Below, in pieces: positions 23,540-41,090 of a DNA stretch of 64,000 nt. The position numbers and the translations under genes are program-made. Under the pieces are notes generated by a model that ran no database searches, was not told the DNA's origin, and worked only from the letters and a program-made list of their open reading frames with translations. This DNA comes from Verrucomicrobiia bacterium. Its GTDB lineage: Bacteria > Verrucomicrobiota > Verrucomicrobiia > Palsa-1439. The stretch covers positions 1 through 64,000 of the forward strand of contig JAJVHY010000017.1 in the NCBI GenBank assembly GCA_022072455.1, in the 5' to 3' direction. The number at the start of each line of letters is the position of its first letter. The first letter of the stretch is position 1.

Positions 23540-26099
23540 TGACCACTCTGTGAACGTGAAAACACGCGAGCCGTTGGGGCGTGGTCGGGGCGGGGAGCTT
23601 GATTCTCCACCGTCGCGCAATACGCCATACATCAATACAATTCCCGCTGCAGCGGTGCCGCCGTATCCCGGCGACCGCGACTTGGAACGGCGCATCAAGA
23701 GCCTCATTCGCTGGAATGCGATGGCCATGGTCGTCAACGCGAATGCGGACGGCAGTGGACGCGGGGGGCATATTTCCACTTATGCCTCGGCGGCGACGTT
23801 ATATGAGGTGGCGTTCAATCACATTTTCCGCGGTCACGATCTTGTCTATTTTCAAGGGCACGCTTCGCCGGGAATCTATGCGCGGGCGTTTCTGGAAGGC
23901 CGGTTGAACGAGTCGCACTTGCAGAATTTCCGCCGCGAAGTTGCCGGTGGCGGCTTGTCGTCGTATCCCCACCCGTATCTGATGCCGGATTTCTGGCAGT
24001 TTCCGACCGTCTCGATGGGTCTCGGTCCGATCATGTCCATTTATCAGGCGCGCTTTAACCGGTACCTCAAAGCGCGTGGTTTTCTGACCGGTGACGAGCC
24101 GCGCGTTTACACGTTTGTCGGCGATGGCGAGATTGATGAGCCGGAAACGCTCGGTGCGATCACGTTGGCGTCGCGTGAGAATCTCGACAACCTTTGCTGG
24201 GTCGTGAACTGCAATCTCCAGCGGCTCGACGGCCCCGTTCGCGGCAACGGCAAGATCATTCAGGAGTTGGAAGCTGCCTTTACCGGCGCGGGTTGGAACG
24301 TCATCAAGGTGATTTGGGGCTCCGATTGGGATCCGCTGTTGGCAAAGGATCACGACGGCCTGCTGGTGCAACGCATGGAAGAAGCCGTGGACGGTGATTA
24401 TCAGAAGTATTCCGTCGAACCCGGCAGCTACACCCGCCGGCATTTCTTTGGCAAATACCCGGAGCTTTACGAGATGGTCAACCATCTCACCGACGACCAG
24501 ATCCGCCGGTTGGGGCGGGGCGGCCACGATCCGCGCAAGGTTTACGCTGCTTACAAGGCGGCCCTCGAACACAAAGGCCAGCCGACTGTGATTCTCGCCA
24601 AGACCGTCAAAGGCTACGGCCTCGGCGAAGCCGGTGAAGGTCGCAACATCACGCACCAGCAGAAAAAGCTCAACGAAAAGGAACTCCGGGAATTCCGCGA
24701 ACGCTTCAAAGTTCCGATCAGCGACGACGTAATTGCCGACACCCCGTTTTACCGGCCCGCGCCGGACTCCCCGGAAGTGAAGTACATGCTCGACCGGCGC
24801 GAGAGGCTCGGCGGCTTCCTGCCGAAACGCGAAAATCGCGCGCCGAAACTCGCGACGCCGAGCCTCGATTACTTTGGCGAATTGCTGAAAGGCTCCGGGC
24901 AGTTGGAGATGTCCACCACGATGGCCTTTGTTCGGTTGCTCTCCGGGATGCTGCGCCACAAAGAACTCGGCCGGCAGGTTGTCCCGATCATCCCCGATGA
25001 GGCGCGCACCTTTGGGATGGATGCCTTGTTCCGGGACGTCGGCATCTACTCGCACAAGGGGCAGCTCTACGAGCCGGTCGACCGCGCGTCGCTGCTCTAT
25101 TACCGCGAAGACAAGCAAGGCCAGATCCTCGAAGAAGGCATCACCGAAGCTGGCGCGATGTCCTCGTGGCTGGCCGCTGCCACGGCCTACGCGACGCATG
25201 GTCTGCCGATGATTCCCTTCTACATCTATTACTCGATGTTCGGTTTCCAACGCGTCGGCGATCAGATGTGGCTGGCTGGCGACATCAAGGCGAAGGGTTT
25301 CCTGCTCGGCGCGACGTACGGCCGCACGACGCTCAACGGCGAAGGTTTGCAACATCAAGACGGCCACAGTCTCCTGCTGGCCAGCACCATCCCGACCTTG
25401 CTCGCGTACGAGCCGGCCTTTGGCTATGAGATTGCCGTCATCATTGCCGATGGTTTGCGGCGGATGTACCAAGAGGGCGAGGAGATTTTCTATTTCCTCG
25501 GCATTCACAACGAGAACTTCGCCATGCCGGCAATGCCCGCGGGTTGTGAGACCGGGATCCTCAAGGGCATGTACAAATTCCGGCCCGGCGTTGCCGGTAA
25601 AAAACACAAGGCGCAGATCTTTGGCAGCGGCACGATTCTCCGCGAAGCCTTACGCGCCCAGGAAATCCTCGCCGACCGGTATGACGTATCGGCGGATGTC
25701 TGGAGCGTGACGAATTACAAACAACTCCGCACGGAAGCCTTGAACTGCGCCCGCTGGAACATGCTGCATCCGCTGGAGCCGGCGCGCAAGTCGTACCTCG
25801 AAACAACCGTGGCTGGCGAAACGGGGCCATTCGTTGCTGTCAGCGACAACATGAAGATCGTGGCCGACCAGATTGCGCCGTGGATTCCCGGCGGACTCAC
25901 GACGCTCGGCACTGACGGTTTTGGGCGGAGTGACACACGCAAGACTCTGCGGCGGTTCTTCGAGGTGGATGCCGAATGCACCGTCATCGCGACGCTTTAT
26001 TCGCTTGCGCAGCGCGGGCAGATTGACCGGCAAGTGGTCGCGACCGCGCTTGGCGAGCTGGGCGTGAACCCGGATAAGTTATTTCCGCAGATTGTGTGA
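23532..26099 (+). CDS. aceE: pyruvate dehydrogenase E1 component, homodimeric type
   Basis: This protein of about 855 residues decarboxylates pyruvate with thiamin diphosphate and passes the acetyl group to lipoylated E2. The conserved part starts at YINTIP and ELERRI-like DLERRIKSLIRWNAM. The thiamin-diphosphate motif GDGEIDEPE...N.N.QRLDG, the FGKYPEL segment and the TSFGMDALFRDVGIY region are as in AceE. The usual N-terminal 50 or so residues before YINTIP are mostly absent. The start is uncertain: GTG at 23514, 23532, 23550 or 23556; GAGGGA precedes 23532. E2 and E3 are encoded at 44.1-46.7 kb. Confidence 0.92.
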   Translation: MIIDHSVNVKTREPLGRGRGGELDSPPSRNTPYINTIPAAAVPPYPGDRDLERRIKSLIRWNAMAMVVNANADGSGRGGHISTYASAATLYEVAFNHIFRGHDLVYFQGHASPGIYARAFLEGRLNESHLQNFRREVAGGGLSSYPHPYLMPDFWQFPTVSMGLGPIMSIYQARFNRYLKARGFLTGDEPRVYTFVGDGEIDEPETLGAITLASRENLDNLCWVVNCNLQRLDGPVRGNGKIIQELEAAFTGAGWNVIKVIWGSDWDPLLAKDHDGLLVQRMEEAVDGDYQKYSVEPGSYTRRHFFGKYPELYEMVNHLTDDQIRRLGRGGHDPRKVYAAYKAALEHKGQPTVILAKTVKGYGLGEAGEGRNITHQQKKLNEKELREFRERFKVPISDDVIADTPFYRPAPDSPEVKYMLDRRERLGGFLPKRENRAPKLATPSLDYFGELLKGSGQLEMSTTMAFVRLLSGMLRHKELGRQVVPIIPDEARTFGMDALFRDVGIYSHKGQLYEPVDRASLLYYREDKQGQILEEGITEAGAMSSWLAAATAYATHGLPMIPFYIYYSMFGFQRVGDQMWLAGDIKAKGFLLGATYGRTTLNGEGLQHQDGHSLLLASTIPTLLAYEPAFGYEIAVIIADGLRRMYQEGEEIFYFLGIHNENFAMPAMPAGCETGILKGMYKFRPGVAGKKHKAQIFGSGTILREALRAQEILADRYDVSADVWSVTNYKQLRTEALNCARWNMLHPLEPARKSYLETTVAGETGPFVAVSDNMKIVADQIAPWIPGGLTTLGTDGFGRSDTRKTLRRFFEVDAECTVIATLYSLAQRGQIDRQVVATALGELGVNPDKLFPQIV

Positions 26100-26939
26100 C
26101 GGGTTCTGGCCGGTGTACCGTTTGAAGACGGTCGCGAAGTATTGTGACGTCGGAAACCCGAGGGCAAATGCTGTTTCCGTCACGGTCGCGTGCTGGCGCG
26201 CCAGTCGGCGCTTGGCTTCCTTGATCTTGGTGCGCAGGACGTATTCGCCGGGGGGAATTTCCACCTGCTCCTTGAATTGGATTTTGAAACTGGAAACCGG
26301 CATGCCAGCGCAAGTCGCCAAGTCCGCAACGCTCAAGCGTTCCTCCAGGTGGCCGTCAACGTAACGGATCGTCCGTTGGATCGACGGAGAAAGTTTCGTG
26401 GGCACGTGCGCTTGGCCACACGCAAGGACTTCGTAGAACAGTTTCGTGATTTGCGTGGGGAACCACGCGTCGAGCAACACGGACTGTGGTTGATGGCGCT
26501 TTTCGTGAATTTCGTTGAGGAGCCGGCGGATCGCAGGCGAGCCACGGAAGAGACGCGGGCGCATCTGGAGGAGTTGCTGACACAGCTGCCGGTTGGCTTC
26601 GGGGTACAGGCCAAAGGGTGGCTCATCCGCCGATGGGATGCGCACATGGATCCAATAGAAGAGACATTTTTCCTGCGGCGAGTTGCCGGTGCTGACGATT
26701 TCGTTTGGGAAAGTCAGAAACACATCCCCACCCCGCAGACAGTATTCTTGTTCGTCGACCCGGATCGTTTGTTGACCTTTGATGAGAAAGGTGAGGCTCA
26801 TCGCCCCCGGCGCGAGTGTCGTGGGTGACATCGGATGCCCGGCACGCATTCGGTCGTGGCGGCTCATCAGAATGATGTTCGGAGCCCCGAAAGCGTAGAT
26901 TTCCCGGCCAGAAATCGAGAGATCGTGGACGTAGTCCAT
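26079..26939 (-). CDS. AraC-family transcriptional regulator
   Basis: This protein of 286 residues has an N-terminal cupin-like sensing half (MSLTFLIKGQQTIRVDEQEYCLRGGDVFLTFP, cited as landmarks around residue 50-80) and two C-terminal helix-turn-helix motifs, the second ending AFALGFPTSQYFATVFKRYTGQNP. I start at ATG 26939; twelve further codons upstream (MKPLLV...) lie partly in the terminal repeat of the adjacent IS element and are not native. Its 3' end overlaps aceE by 21 bases. A decayed homologue lies at 40756-41090. The controlled genes are not evident. Confidence 0.85.
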   Translation of the reverse strand: MDYVHDLSISGREIYAFGAPNIILMSRHDRMRAGHPMSPTTLAPGAMSLTFLIKGQQTIRVDEQEYCLRGGDVFLTFPNEIVSTGNSPQEKCLFYWIHVRIPSADEPPFGLYPEANRQLCQQLLQMRPRLFRGSPAIRRLLNEIHEKRHQPQSVLLDAWFPTQITKLFYEVLACGQAHVPTKLSPSIQRTIRYVDGHLEERLSVADLATCAGMPVSSFKIQFKEQVEIPPGEYVLRTKIKEAKRRLARQHATVTETAFALGFPTSQYFATVFKRYTGQNPSHNLRK

Positions 26940-26960
26940 GTTTGAAATCGTATAAAATAC

Positions 26961-26978
26961 TAGAAGCGGTTTCATAAG
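26961..26978 (+). repeat. left terminal inverted repeat of the IS
   Basis: TAGAAGCGGTTTCATAAG, pairing with 27781-27798 at 16 of 18 positions. The transposase stop codon falls within it. Confidence 0.8.
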
Positions 26979-27720
26979 TGTCTCAGAGTGATGAGCAGGC
27001 AGGCGACATGGAAAAACGCCGAATACATTTGGATCTGTCGTTCATAGCGCACTACCAACCGGCGGTAGTGGCCCAGCCACGCCAAGGTCCGCTCGATTTT
27101 CCACCGTTTGCGATACCGCCGCAGGGAGCGCCCGTCTTGCCAAGCGGGCCGCCGCCGATTCTTCCGATGCGGGCAGATCAACTCGGTGCCGCGCCGCTGC
27201 AGGTCCCGCCGCAACCGACTCTTGGGCCGCCCGCGCCCACGGCGGGGCACACGCACCGCCGCCAACGTGCGGGGTAGCAATTTCACTTCCGCCGGGGAGG
27301 CTGAGTCCAGGTGCTTTCCCAGAGGAACGCCTTGGCCGTCGACCACCACCATCCACTTCGTGCCCTTGCCCCGTTTGGTTTTGCTGACGCACGCGCCCCT
27401 TTTTTGGCAGGAGCAAAACTCCCGTCCACAAAACTCTCACTCCAGTCCAGTTGCCCACGGGCGTCCAACTCGGCGAAGAACTGACGCCAGATCTTGAGCC
27501 AAATCCCGCGCGCTTCCCAGACCTGCAACCGCCGCCAGCAGGTACTGGCGCTGGGATATTCCGCCGGCAAATCCCGCCAGCGCGCGCCGGTTTTGAGCAC
27601 CCAGAGAATCCCCTCGAGGACGCGGCGATTCGCGGCCCACGGCCGCCCCTGACTGATGGGGTTGGGCAGCAACGGTTCGATCTTCTTCCACTGTTCGTCG
27701 GACAAGAATGGCTTTGGCAT
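26972..27720 (-). CDS. IS5-family transposase, two frames joined by frameshift
   Basis: The first frame starts at MPKPFLSDEQWKKIEPLLP (ATG 27720) and holds the N-terminal DNA-binding part and the first catalytic aspartate (SFVDGSF). The second frame, continuing from KGACVSKTKRGKGTKW to the stop at 26972, holds the second aspartate (VVVDGQGVPLG) and the glutamate (KIERTLAWLGHYRRL). The frames join by a -1 shift at a run of six A followed by G (27405-27400 on the minus strand), the kind of slippery site many IS5-group elements use. The complete DDE set suggests it may still be active. Confidence 0.85.
27399..27406 (-). other. A6G slippery site for -1 frameshift in the transposase
   Basis: On the minus strand GCC AAA AAA GGG is read in the first frame. 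Slipping back by one base on AAAAAAG gives the frame that encodes the conserved second half. Upstream and downstream frames both match the family, so the shift is functional or a mutation at the same site. Confidence 0.6.
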
Positions 27721-27780
27721 CCCGAGCTTTTCACATATTTGCTCTAAAGGTGCCAGAGGAAAATACTTACAGCAATTCAG

Positions 27781-27798
27781 CTTATGAAACCACTTCTC
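27781..27798 (-). repeat. right terminal inverted repeat of the IS
   Basis: The minus strand reads GAGAAGTGGTTTCATAAG. On the plus strand it contains ATGAAACC, which serves as the start of the frame in the next gene. Confidence 0.8.
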
Positions 27799-28413
27799 GT
27801 GATCCTCGGCGCCGGGGTTCACTTGGTCCGTAACTTATGGCCGGTGGCTGATAAATTTGACCCGACAACTGCCTTGGCTATTGGGCAAATATTGGCAGAA
27901 GAAACGACCGCAGCCATTCAGAACAAAGGCCGGGTGGTCGCCGTCATCTCCGAACTGCATCAAGCGCCGACCGGCGCGGCCCACGTCGAATGGAAAATGT
28001 TTCGCGAGGAGCTGAAAAAGCACCCGGCCATCGAACTGGTCGCGACGGAGATCCCCGAGAATACCGACGGCATCCCTGAATGTTCGAGCGGTCCGTTCAA
28101 GGAAATCCTGGAACGGCATGCGCAGGTGGATGCGATTGTGTTTCTCCTGCCGTTACCGCCTTGGTCGTGGTTGGAAACGCGCGGGGCAATTCCTGCCTCA
28201 CCGGCTGCTCAGGTCATTGCCCTTGGCGGGGCGCCGTTTTCCGCCAAGCAACATTTTACCGGTTACTTCACCCACCGGGTCCTTTCGGTGCTGTTATGTC
28301 AGCGGCGCGAACGCGGTTCCGACCAAATCGTCAATCCCCAAACACCGCGGGAACACTTGCACAACGAGTACCAGATTTTCACTCCGCAGAATTACGAAAT
28401 GTTGCCGGAGTAA
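27784..28413 (+). CDS. hypothetical protein with IS-derived start; paralogue of the protein at 40092
   Basis: This 209-residue frame aligns with the protein at 40092-40724 along its length (DKFDPT, GAAH.EW, KHP, IVFL.PL, YQIFTP). The ungapped match begins at base 27799, exactly where the IS ends. The first five codons (ATG AAA CCA CTT CTC) come from the IS repeat and replace about 12 native codons of the N-terminal membrane anchor. The product still has a weak hydrophobic start. No family or function is recognised. It may be a damaged gene or one re-started by the IS. Confidence 0.6.
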   Translation: MKPLLVILGAGVHLVRNLWPVADKFDPTTALAIGQILAEETTAAIQNKGRVVAVISELHQAPTGAAHVEWKMFREELKKHPAIELVATEIPENTDGIPECSSGPFKEILERHAQVDAIVFLLPLPPWSWLETRGAIPASPAAQVIALGGAPFSAKQHFTGYFTHRVLSVLLCQRRERGSDQIVNPQTPREHLHNEYQIFTPQNYEMLPE

Positions 28414-38470: not shown

Positions 38471-39090
38471 TGAGCGGAATCCCAGCCAAACGCGCGTTCA
38501 CGTTGATCGAGCTGATGGCGGTGGTGGTGGTGATTTTGGCCTTGGCAGCCATCGGAATGGGCGTGGCCGGCTATGTGCAGAAGAAAGTCAACATTGCGAC
38601 GACCAAATCGCAAATTGCCGCCATCGAAGCCGCGTTGGAGGCGTACCGGAGTGATTGGGGATATTATCCGCTCACGTTCGAGAAGCGCCTCTCCACCGAC
38701 GGGAGCGTGGAGTTGACGAACAATGCGACATTGTATCGCGCGTTGTTCACTCGCGGGAAGCGGTACCTGGTGTTTCCGGCGACGCAGGTGCGGACGGATT
38801 TGATGAGCACTTATGTGATGACCGGCGCGCCGACGTATATTTTTGACATCTTTGGCAAGCCGTTCAATTACTACAATTCGCCGGCAACCCCTTTCTCAGT
38901 GGGGGTAAATCTGACTTCCGGCGGCGGGTCAATTGTCCGTACCAATCCATGTACTCTGGGTGGGCAGATGAACCGGACACATTTTGATCTCTTTTCGTAT
39001 GGCCCGGACAAATATACGTACAGCCGGACGAACCTTCTGTGGGCCAATCCCGCCCACGCCATAGATGATCTCCGTAATTGGGAGCCGTGA
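38470..39090 (+). CDS. type II secretion pseudopilin-like protein (GspG-like)
   Basis: This 206-residue protein has the prepilin leader and cleavage motif KRAFTLIELMAVVVVILALAAIG, with the G/A-F-T-L-I-E-L hallmark. A GspG-like domain follows (ATTKSQIAAIEAALEAYRSDWGYYP). The C-terminal part (DIFGKPFNYY, DLFSYGPDKYT) matches major-pseudopilin-type proteins. Start and stop overlap both neighbours by one base (TGATG), so translation is coupled with the PEP-CTERM gene and the next pseudopilin. Confidence 0.88.
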   Translation: MSGIPAKRAFTLIELMAVVVVILALAAIGMGVAGYVQKKVNIATTKSQIAAIEAALEAYRSDWGYYPLTFEKRLSTDGSVELTNNATLYRALFTRGKRYLVFPATQVRTDLMSTYVMTGAPTYIFDIFGKPFNYYNSPATPFSVGVNLTSGGGSIVRTNPCTLGGQMNRTHFDLFSYGPDKYTYSRTNLLWANPAHAIDDLRNWEP

Positions 39091-40085
39091 TGCGACGCAA
39101 CAGCAGCTTCACTCTGATCGAGTTGCTGATGGTCGTGGCCGTGATCGCGGTGTTGGCGGCGTTACTCATGCCGGCGCTTAAATCCTCCCGCGACCGCGCC
39201 AAGACCGTCGAGTGCGCCAGCAATGAACGGCAGATCGGCGTGGCGTTCGCGGCGTTTCTGGTCGATCGCAACGGGTTTTATCCGTACAGTGGTCCGCCCA
39301 GAATGATGGAGTACAACGGGACTAATTGGACACCGGGCTTCAACAGCAGTCGCGGATGGGTTCGGCAAATTGCCGTGTATCTCTCGCCCGAGGACGTTAG
39401 TGCCGTGTCTCTCCCGCCCGAGACTCCCTACATCTCGACCAGCAGTGCGACGTTGCGGCGGCTCATGCAGTGTCGGGCGAATCCGTGGCCGTTTCCGAAA
39501 AATTCGACCGCGTCGTGGTGGATCCCAGCAGGCGAAACGCCGCGTTCCTACCAAATGAATAACACGATGTTTCCCGTGCACATGTTTATTCAGGGCGGCA
39601 ATTACCCGACGATGTATGTGCCCGACAACTGGCTGTCCCGTGTCCAAGTGAACAGCATTCGCAGTCCCGCGCGGTTGGCGTTGCTTGGGGAAATTCCGTG
39701 GACGGAATCGGCGAACAATGCGTTTGGCCATCGGTTGCCGGGCCCGCCGCATGACACGTACTCGCATTGGACGGGTTTTACTCGGTGGACTTGGACGACA
39801 CTGGCGGTGACCGGCGCGAACGTCTATGCCACCTGGAAACGCCCGGATTGTGGCAACTTCGGTTCGGTGTTCCACAATTTGGGGGCGAATATTCTGTTTG
39901 TGGATGGTCATGTCGAGTGGCATTCCAAAAAAACGTTGATCACCTACGGCGACCAATACGAAACGAGCCGGTTTAATCCGGCCGGCTTACCGGGGAACGT
40001 GTTTTGGACCGATAACCAATTGGTCGTGGATTCTGTGCCTGCGATCCGGCAGTTTCCAGCGGCCCCGTGGCCGTGGGATCCGTAA
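39090..40085 (+). CDS. prepilin-type protein with H-X9-DG domain
   Basis: This 331-residue protein starts with the prepilin motif SSFTLIELLMVVAVIAVLAALL and later has HNLGANILFVDG, an exact H-X9-DG motif found in a large family of Verrucomicrobia, Planctomycetes and Lentisphaerae proteins. These proteins are processed by prepilin peptidase; their role is unknown. ATG 39090 overlaps the upstream stop (TGATG). Confidence 0.88.
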   Translation: MRRNSSFTLIELLMVVAVIAVLAALLMPALKSSRDRAKTVECASNERQIGVAFAAFLVDRNGFYPYSGPPRMMEYNGTNWTPGFNSSRGWVRQIAVYLSPEDVSAVSLPPETPYISTSSATLRRLMQCRANPWPFPKNSTASWWIPAGETPRSYQMNNTMFPVHMFIQGGNYPTMYVPDNWLSRVQVNSIRSPARLALLGEIPWTESANNAFGHRLPGPPHDTYSHWTGFTRWTWTTLAVTGANVYATWKRPDCGNFGSVFHNLGANILFVDGHVEWHSKKTLITYGDQYETSRFNPAGLPGNVFWTDNQLVVDSVPAIRQFPAAPWPWDP

Positions 40086-40091
40086 GCGCAC

Positions 40092-40724
40092 TTGAAACCC
40101 GCTCTCATCGCCAGCTTGGCCGGCCTCGTCATCGTAATTGCCGGGGTTTCGGTCTGGCGAACGTTGCGGCCCATCTCCGACAAATTCGATCCGACCCACT
40201 CACTGGCGAGCGGCCAACTCTTGGCCCAAGAAACCGCCAAGGCCATTCAGGGCCAGGGATGGGTTGTGCCAGTCATTTCACCCGACCACCAGCAAACCGG
40301 CGGGGCCGCCCATGCGGAGTGGCAGGCGTTTCAAGCGGTACTGCGAAAGCATCCAGGCATCCAACTCACCGCGCCAGAGATTCTGACCAAACTGGAAGAC
40401 TTGCCGGGCTGCTCGGGCGCCACTTTCACGGACATCCTCGCGCGGCATTCGCAAGCCGGTGCCATCGTGTTTCTGACGCCGCTTCAATCGTGGCTGCAAA
40501 TGAAAGAGTCTCCTCCGGCGCCGCCCACCGCGCGGATCATTGTCCAAAGTTTGCCGGTGTACTCCGCGAAAAATGCATTCGCCGGTTATTTCGAGCAGAA
40601 GTTTATTTCCGTGCTTCTCTACCGCGGCCTGGCAGGCGGTTCTGCCGACTACCAGATCTTCACGCCGGACAATTTCCATGACCTGCCGGGCAACCCAGCT
40701 CTCCCTGAAGCCTCAGATCGCTGA
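40092..40724 (+). CDS. hypothetical membrane-anchored protein, intact paralogue of 27784
   Basis: This 210-residue protein has a TTG start, an N-terminal membrane segment (residues 4-22, ALIASLAGLVIVIAGVSVW) and a soluble domain with DKFDPTHSLASGQ, GGAAHAEW, AIVFLTPLQSWL and YQIFTPDNF. No family is recognised. It lies six bases after the H-X9-DG gene and so probably belongs to the PEP-CTERM operon. Its relative at 27784 has lost the anchor to an IS. Both are next to a gene or remnant of the same AraC type. Confidence 0.7.
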   Translation: MKPALIASLAGLVIVIAGVSVWRTLRPISDKFDPTHSLASGQLLAQETAKAIQGQGWVVPVISPDHQQTGGAAHAEWQAFQAVLRKHPGIQLTAPEILTKLEDLPGCSGATFTDILARHSQAGAIVFLTPLQSWLQMKESPPAPPTARIIVQSLPVYSAKNAFAGYFEQKFISVLLYRGLAGGSADYQIFTPDNFHDLPGNPALPEASDR

Positions 40725-40755: not shown

Positions 40756-41090
40756 GCGATCGGGCGAGCGTGCTGGGGCGTTGGCCGGTGTAGCGTTTGA
40801 AAACGGTGGCAAAATACTGCGACGTCCGGAAGCCCAGCGCAAAAGCGGTCGCAGTGACGGATGCACCACATTTGTCCAAACGGCGTTTGGCTTCATTGAT
40901 CTTCGCCGGCGAATGACGTTGGCCACACTCTTGGACTTCGTAGAACAGTTTCGTGATTTGATTGGGGAATCACGCATCGAACAAGATCGACTGCGGTAGA
41001 TGGCGCTTTTCGTGAATTTCGTTGACGAGTCGGCGGATGGCGGGCGGGCCGCGGGCAATCGGGCGCTGGACGTACTCGCGAATGACTGGG
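40756..41090 (-). pseudogene. decayed AraC-family regulator gene
   Basis: On the minus strand this region resembles the AraC gene at 26079-26939. The C-terminal helix-turn-helix part (around 40790-40900) and the middle part (around 40925-41070, with the LNEIHEKRH region) are recognisable. About 170 bases between them, encoding the first DNA-binding helix pair, are deleted, and no frame spans the region. The N-terminal sensor half is absent. Confidence 0.75.

Follow-up and report, generated by a model that had tools for sequence, protein, structure and literature searches.

Features of the locus

The window, by which we mean the whole stretch of 64,000 nucleotides analysed here (G000:C8:1-64000), belongs to a draft genome of 36 contigs and 4.8 Mb. 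Within it, an insertion sequence (IS) separates a gene for an AraC-type regulator from an open frame of 209 amino acids that begins MKPLL, and a paralogue of this second gene lies intact further along (Table 1).

Table 1. Positions of the insertion sequence, its ends and the neighbouring genes in the window
Feature	Position	Strand	Remarks
IS5-family, IS427-like insertion sequence	26963-27796	- (transposase strand)	834 bp; terminal repeats at both ends and Pfam transposase matches
Left terminal inverted repeat, GAAGCGGTTTCATAAG	26963-26978	+	Preceded by TA (26961-26962)
Right terminal inverted repeat, GAAGTGGTTTCATAAG	27781-27796	-	Plus strand reads CTTATGAAACCACTTC; start codon within
Junction dinucleotide TC, start of host DNA	27797-27798	.	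TA in other copies; CTC codon in common with the paralogue
AAAAAAG run at the orfA/orfB overlap	27399-27405	-	Presumed programmed transposase frameshift site, from sequence and PMC3281130
AraC-family regulator left of the IS	26079-26939	-	Likely native ATG at 26939; a further in-frame ATG upstream of it, at 26975, comes from the left IS end
Truncated gene with a start most likely derived from the IS (MKPL)	27784-28413	+	Predicted fold like that of type-I periplasmic-binding proteins; the genome has 14 members of this family
Intact paralogue, used as comparison reference	40092-40724	+	TTG start; 27-residue leader
Prepilin-type (H-X9-DG) frame	39078-40085	+	Ends just before the intact paralogue; counterpart missing at 27784

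The terminal repeats of the element (GAAGYGGTTTCATAAG) are 16-bp copies of GAAG[C/T]GGTTTCATAAG with one difference between them, and both match exactly at the positions in Table 1. The repeat includes CAT, so either end, when read outward, gives ATGAAACC[A/G]CTTC. Two overlapping minus-strand frames match an IS4/5-type DDE transposase in Pfam (PF13340 (DUF4096), E = 2.9e-27; PF01609 (DDE_Tnp_1), E = 1.5e-7), and their overlap holds an AAAAAAG run that is presumed to be a frameshift motif. Elements of the IS427 group of the IS5 family are about 830–865 bp long with imperfect repeats of 13–21 bp (PMC3281130, Table 2), and they usually duplicate 2 bp of the target; their transposase is encoded in two overlapping ORFs with a conserved frameshift motif (PMC3281130). 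The window element resembles them in transposase type, size, imperfect repeats and two overlapping frames with such a motif, and these traits fit a place in that group. A 2-bp duplication, here TA, is seen in the other two-ended elements of this type. The window element differs from the published members in host lineage and sequence, and this copy is without a target duplication, with TA before its left end and TC after its right end. A literature search on this exact IS returned no report.

Contigs C13, C17, C20 and C35 of the same genome end inside copies of this IS or of a near relative, so several further unassembled copies exist. Other genomes of the class contain elements some 120 bp long whose ends are related (TTTCAAAAG) and flanked on both sides by TA (G334:C20:55041-55165; G098:C24:318385-318506; G098:C26:10622-10746); they look like miniatures belonging to this IS group.

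A repeat-borne start codon joined in frame to a gene

The motif ATGAAACCACTTC sits within the right inverted repeat and opens the frame at 27784. As the preliminary description had it, the gene aligns with the paralogue at 40092 in a gapless codon register from the IS border onward, with 59% nucleotide identity over 27797-27869 against 22–23% on the IS side. The border itself had been placed at 27799; since codon 27796-27798 is CTC in both genes, it most likely lies at 27796/27797. The IS then contributes 13 nucleotides (ATGAAACCACTTC) and host DNA begins with TC, so that the IS would encode MKPL and supply one base, the first, of codon five: four residues rather than the five (MKPLL) originally proposed for this in-frame start. 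The same outward ATGAAACC[A/G]CTTC occurs at the copies on C13, C17, C20 and C35, in unrelated surroundings, and in other genomes. At the level of sequence, the fusion of an IS tip in frame to a gene lacking its first codons is thus confirmed.

Is the DNA of the start truly that of the IS? Compared with the sister right ends on C17, C20 and C35, the window right end has two differing bases near its tip and agrees over the rest of the 126 shared bases. The variant T in GAAGTGG is found in five other ends of the element type, and the variant C after CATAAG is found in a 67-bp element described below and in G340. We therefore prefer an IS origin for the start. The right repeat is also complete to its tip, where homology with the paralogue begins, and the earlier proposal of a new start taken from the IS is supported: the IS is the most likely source of both the start codon and the residues that follow it first. 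A right repeat that is partly native, as the two differences from three sister ends within the last 20 bases might suggest, was rejected, both variants being present in other ends.

We also weighed a native MKPLL start. In this case the native codons would have been regained when a deletion joined the IS end to the native start through a short stretch common to both (ATGAAACC), and the IS would supply only the DNA upstream of the ATG. Such a start is not absurd, because several homologues naturally have [M/V][K/R]RPLL or LKPAL where this gene has MKPLL, and we retain it because MKRPLL, VKRPLL, MRRPLI and LKPAL stand at the equivalent place in family members. It would explain at one stroke the T variant, the TC found where TA is usual and the fact that the reading frame is right, and the IS end and the paralogue start match at 11 of 15 bases. 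Against it, both variants are already present in IS ends elsewhere, the native codons would have to have copied the IS tip CTTC by chance, and the leader would be seven codons shorter than in all comparators and without a proper membrane segment. On balance we regard a native start as unlikely and keep to a start derived from the IS.

The missing leader and the probable loss of an upstream partner

We compared the N-terminus with those of eight homologues whose own are short and clear; seven are encoded in the same genome, and the eighth belongs to a family relative. Counted as far as the conserved RP region, the hydrophobic leader has 20 residues here and 27–28 in all eight comparators, and the best 19-residue mean hydropathy is 1.55 against 2.2–2.8. 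Translation from GTG 27799 instead would give a best mean of 0.84. The hydrophobic N-terminus is thus only partly restored, as had been suggested, and the comparison supports the view that the native leader is gone. A prepilin-type H-X9-DG gene ends directly upstream in eight of the 12 other members of this genome that have upstream sequence, the closest included (five were checked by HMM). Upstream of the gene at 27784 lie the IS and then the opposite-strand AraC-type gene, with no prepilin-type gene; this partner, too, is probably gone.

The family is a lineage-specific expansion, with 14 members in this genome (13 besides the gene at 27784) and none in most relatives. Three of them lie within 8 kb at G000:C1:558803-566355, two with prepilin-type genes directly upstream. 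An orthologue of the gene at 27784 free of the IS was found neither in the order (11 genomes) nor in 384 genomes of the class nor in the GTDB contig collection; all that these searches yielded were paralogues or relatives with some 30% identity, and we therefore infer the native start from paralogues at no more than 51% identity.

How the junction may have arisen

TA precedes 22 of 24 ends of this element type; many of these were found with a pattern that includes TA, and seven of the eight own-genome ends found without it agree. Elements for which both ends are available have TA on both sides. The window copy, whose left border has TA but whose right border has TC, is therefore not a simple insertion, and the best fit is an insertion accompanied by a deletion or rearrangement. 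Loss of the target duplication is a known sign of deletion next to the element or of recombination between IS copies, both of them frequent causes (PMC11708052). As in the IS movements with large deletions reported there, the IS would border lost DNA and the target duplication is absent; those events were seen directly in evolving cultures, whereas ours is reconstructed from one genome. A TC junction is not expected from a standard adjacent deletion at a TA target and would need an unusual target or one substitution.

In the explanation that we consider probable as a whole, an IS427-like element of the IS5 family lay or landed beside the gene. The prepilin-type partner, the promoter and the first ~11 codons would then have been lost in a deletion or rearrangement with one endpoint at the IS tip, joining host DNA from 27797 onward to the right terminal repeat. 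The outward start codon of the repeat (ATG AAA CCA CTT C..) is by chance in frame and, as the sequence shows, gives MKPLL-VILGAG..., an open frame with a shortened hydrophobic start before an intact periplasmic-binding-like domain. Of the deletion proposed earlier, the loss of the native leader stands; the deletion as such is one way to that state, and the same picture would result if IS copies had recombined or the assembler had made the join.

An assembly join would mean that the left and right flanks come from two IS copies wrongly connected by the assembler. The endings of C13, C17, C20 and C35 inside the same IS or a near relative would suit this, as would the absence of both a target duplication and a left-hand gene fragment at the window IS and the recovery of more right ends than left ends. 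Yet the right end has two bases that distinguish it from the three unresolved right ends, and a wrongly joined normal copy should keep TA at its right junction. We hold a chimera to be unlikely; in that case, too, the right-hand fusion of IS and gene would stand and only the deletion claim would fall.

The left end and the AraC-type gene

Besides the right end that opens the gene at 27784, the left end is also in frame with its neighbour: MKPLLVFYTISN stands ahead of the AraC-type gene (26940-26975), for a frame of 298 codons. In a homologue on C18, too, TISN precedes the methionine that is likely the start, and conservation may therefore extend upstream of the AraC start. Downstream of the intact paralogue, at 40769-41065, lies a broken AraC-type gene with a stop and a deletion, whose pieces are 73–76% identical to the gene at 26079.

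A second case with both flanks intact

On contig C1 a miniature element of 67 bp, which shares its ends with the window IS and has TA on both sides (G000:C1:412300-412366, within 412298-412368), interrupts a minus-strand ORF of 221 amino acids, and its empty site can be read. The joined flanks give ATGAAGAGCCTAATCTGT..., MKSLICFLILILLCFRLAVSG, an N-terminus that looks like a signal peptide. With the element in place, the native start reaches TAA after MKSLELVS; the outward ATG of the element (C1:412312) is in the same register because 69 bases were added, and it gives MKPLLICFLILILLCFRLAVSG, so that MKSL-ICFLIL becomes MKPLL-ICFLIL. In base composition the ORF resembles coding DNA (GC at the three codon positions 0.60, 0.35 and 0.51); no homologue was found in 379 genomes of the class and no match in Pfam. 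With both flanks intact, this element supports the same principle of start exchange as that suggested for the window IS.

Chance, precedent and a possible role of the repeats

Being in frame is by itself a one-in-three event. As a chance baseline we took the 2,148 TA sites of the window, 13% of which would give an ORF of at least 200 amino acids; three of eight own-genome ends give such frames (p ~0.08). Chance suffices to explain the outward in-frame ORFs at these ends, and an over-representation was rejected as not significant. The idea that the first base of the outward start is kept to ATG, TTG or GTG met one CTG-type match in G478, among ends that had been pre-selected.

A far-reaching reading is that this IS lineage keeps its repeats as tags that put a stop inward and a start outward: with an inward TAA and an outward start whose open MKPLL frame suits signal peptides, 5' insertions in genes for secreted proteins might be tolerated by exchanging the first residues, as with the 67-bp element on C1 and, in damaged form, here. 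We offer this as a long shot.

The principle itself is already known. In Acinetobacter, outward terminal-repeat nucleotides of MITEAba12 supply the start and first residues, MQQS, of a neighbouring gene (PMC6382973). The window IS likewise carries an outward start codon in its terminal repeat, in frame with the neighbouring gene. MITEAba12 is a non-autonomous element of another kind, and no truncation of a hydrophobic leader was proposed for its fusions, whereas the element in the window is a complete member of the IS5 family and its case probably involves a deletion or rearrangement. The window IS thus extends the known principle to a different family of elements.

Use of the start and fate of the gene

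The AlphaFold model of the protein (mean pLDDT 91.9) resembles sugar-binding proteins in Foldseek (E = 5e-7, TM-score ~0.42–0.56 by query length, 9–17% identity), which points to a small, partial type-I periplasmic-binding-protein-like domain; its score for Pfam Peripla_BP_4 was 16.1 bits, below the cut-off of 35.1. Judging from their leaders, the relatives are presumably held at the membrane with the domain outside. The present leader has 13 mostly hydrophobic residues, a histidine among them, and it is doubtful as a membrane anchor.

Whether the new ATG is used is a separate matter, compatible with the preferred account of its origin. We lean slightly towards its not being used, with translation from GTG 27799, another possible start, or from a later codon, or with the gene unexpressed. 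Searches upstream of the gene found no sigma-70-like promoter, and no ribosome-binding site is evident at the usual distance from the ATG; the partner gene and its promoter would also be gone. On the other side, a start at GTG 27799 would nearly lose the hydrophobic segment (0.84 versus 1.55), and the frame is still free of stops, though perhaps only through youth. If translated, the protein would be weakly secreted or mislocalised; the gene may equally be a silent young pseudogene. The likeliest state, judging from these features, is a young remnant that is weakly or not expressed.

Overall, the locus offers a clear sequence-level example of a mobile element ending one gene start and providing another, and it shows why annotators should be wary of taking a start codon close to an IS border for the native one. 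The cleaner 67-bp case, with both flanks and a readable empty site, makes it testable whether these repeats act as portable gene starts or meet open frames by chance.
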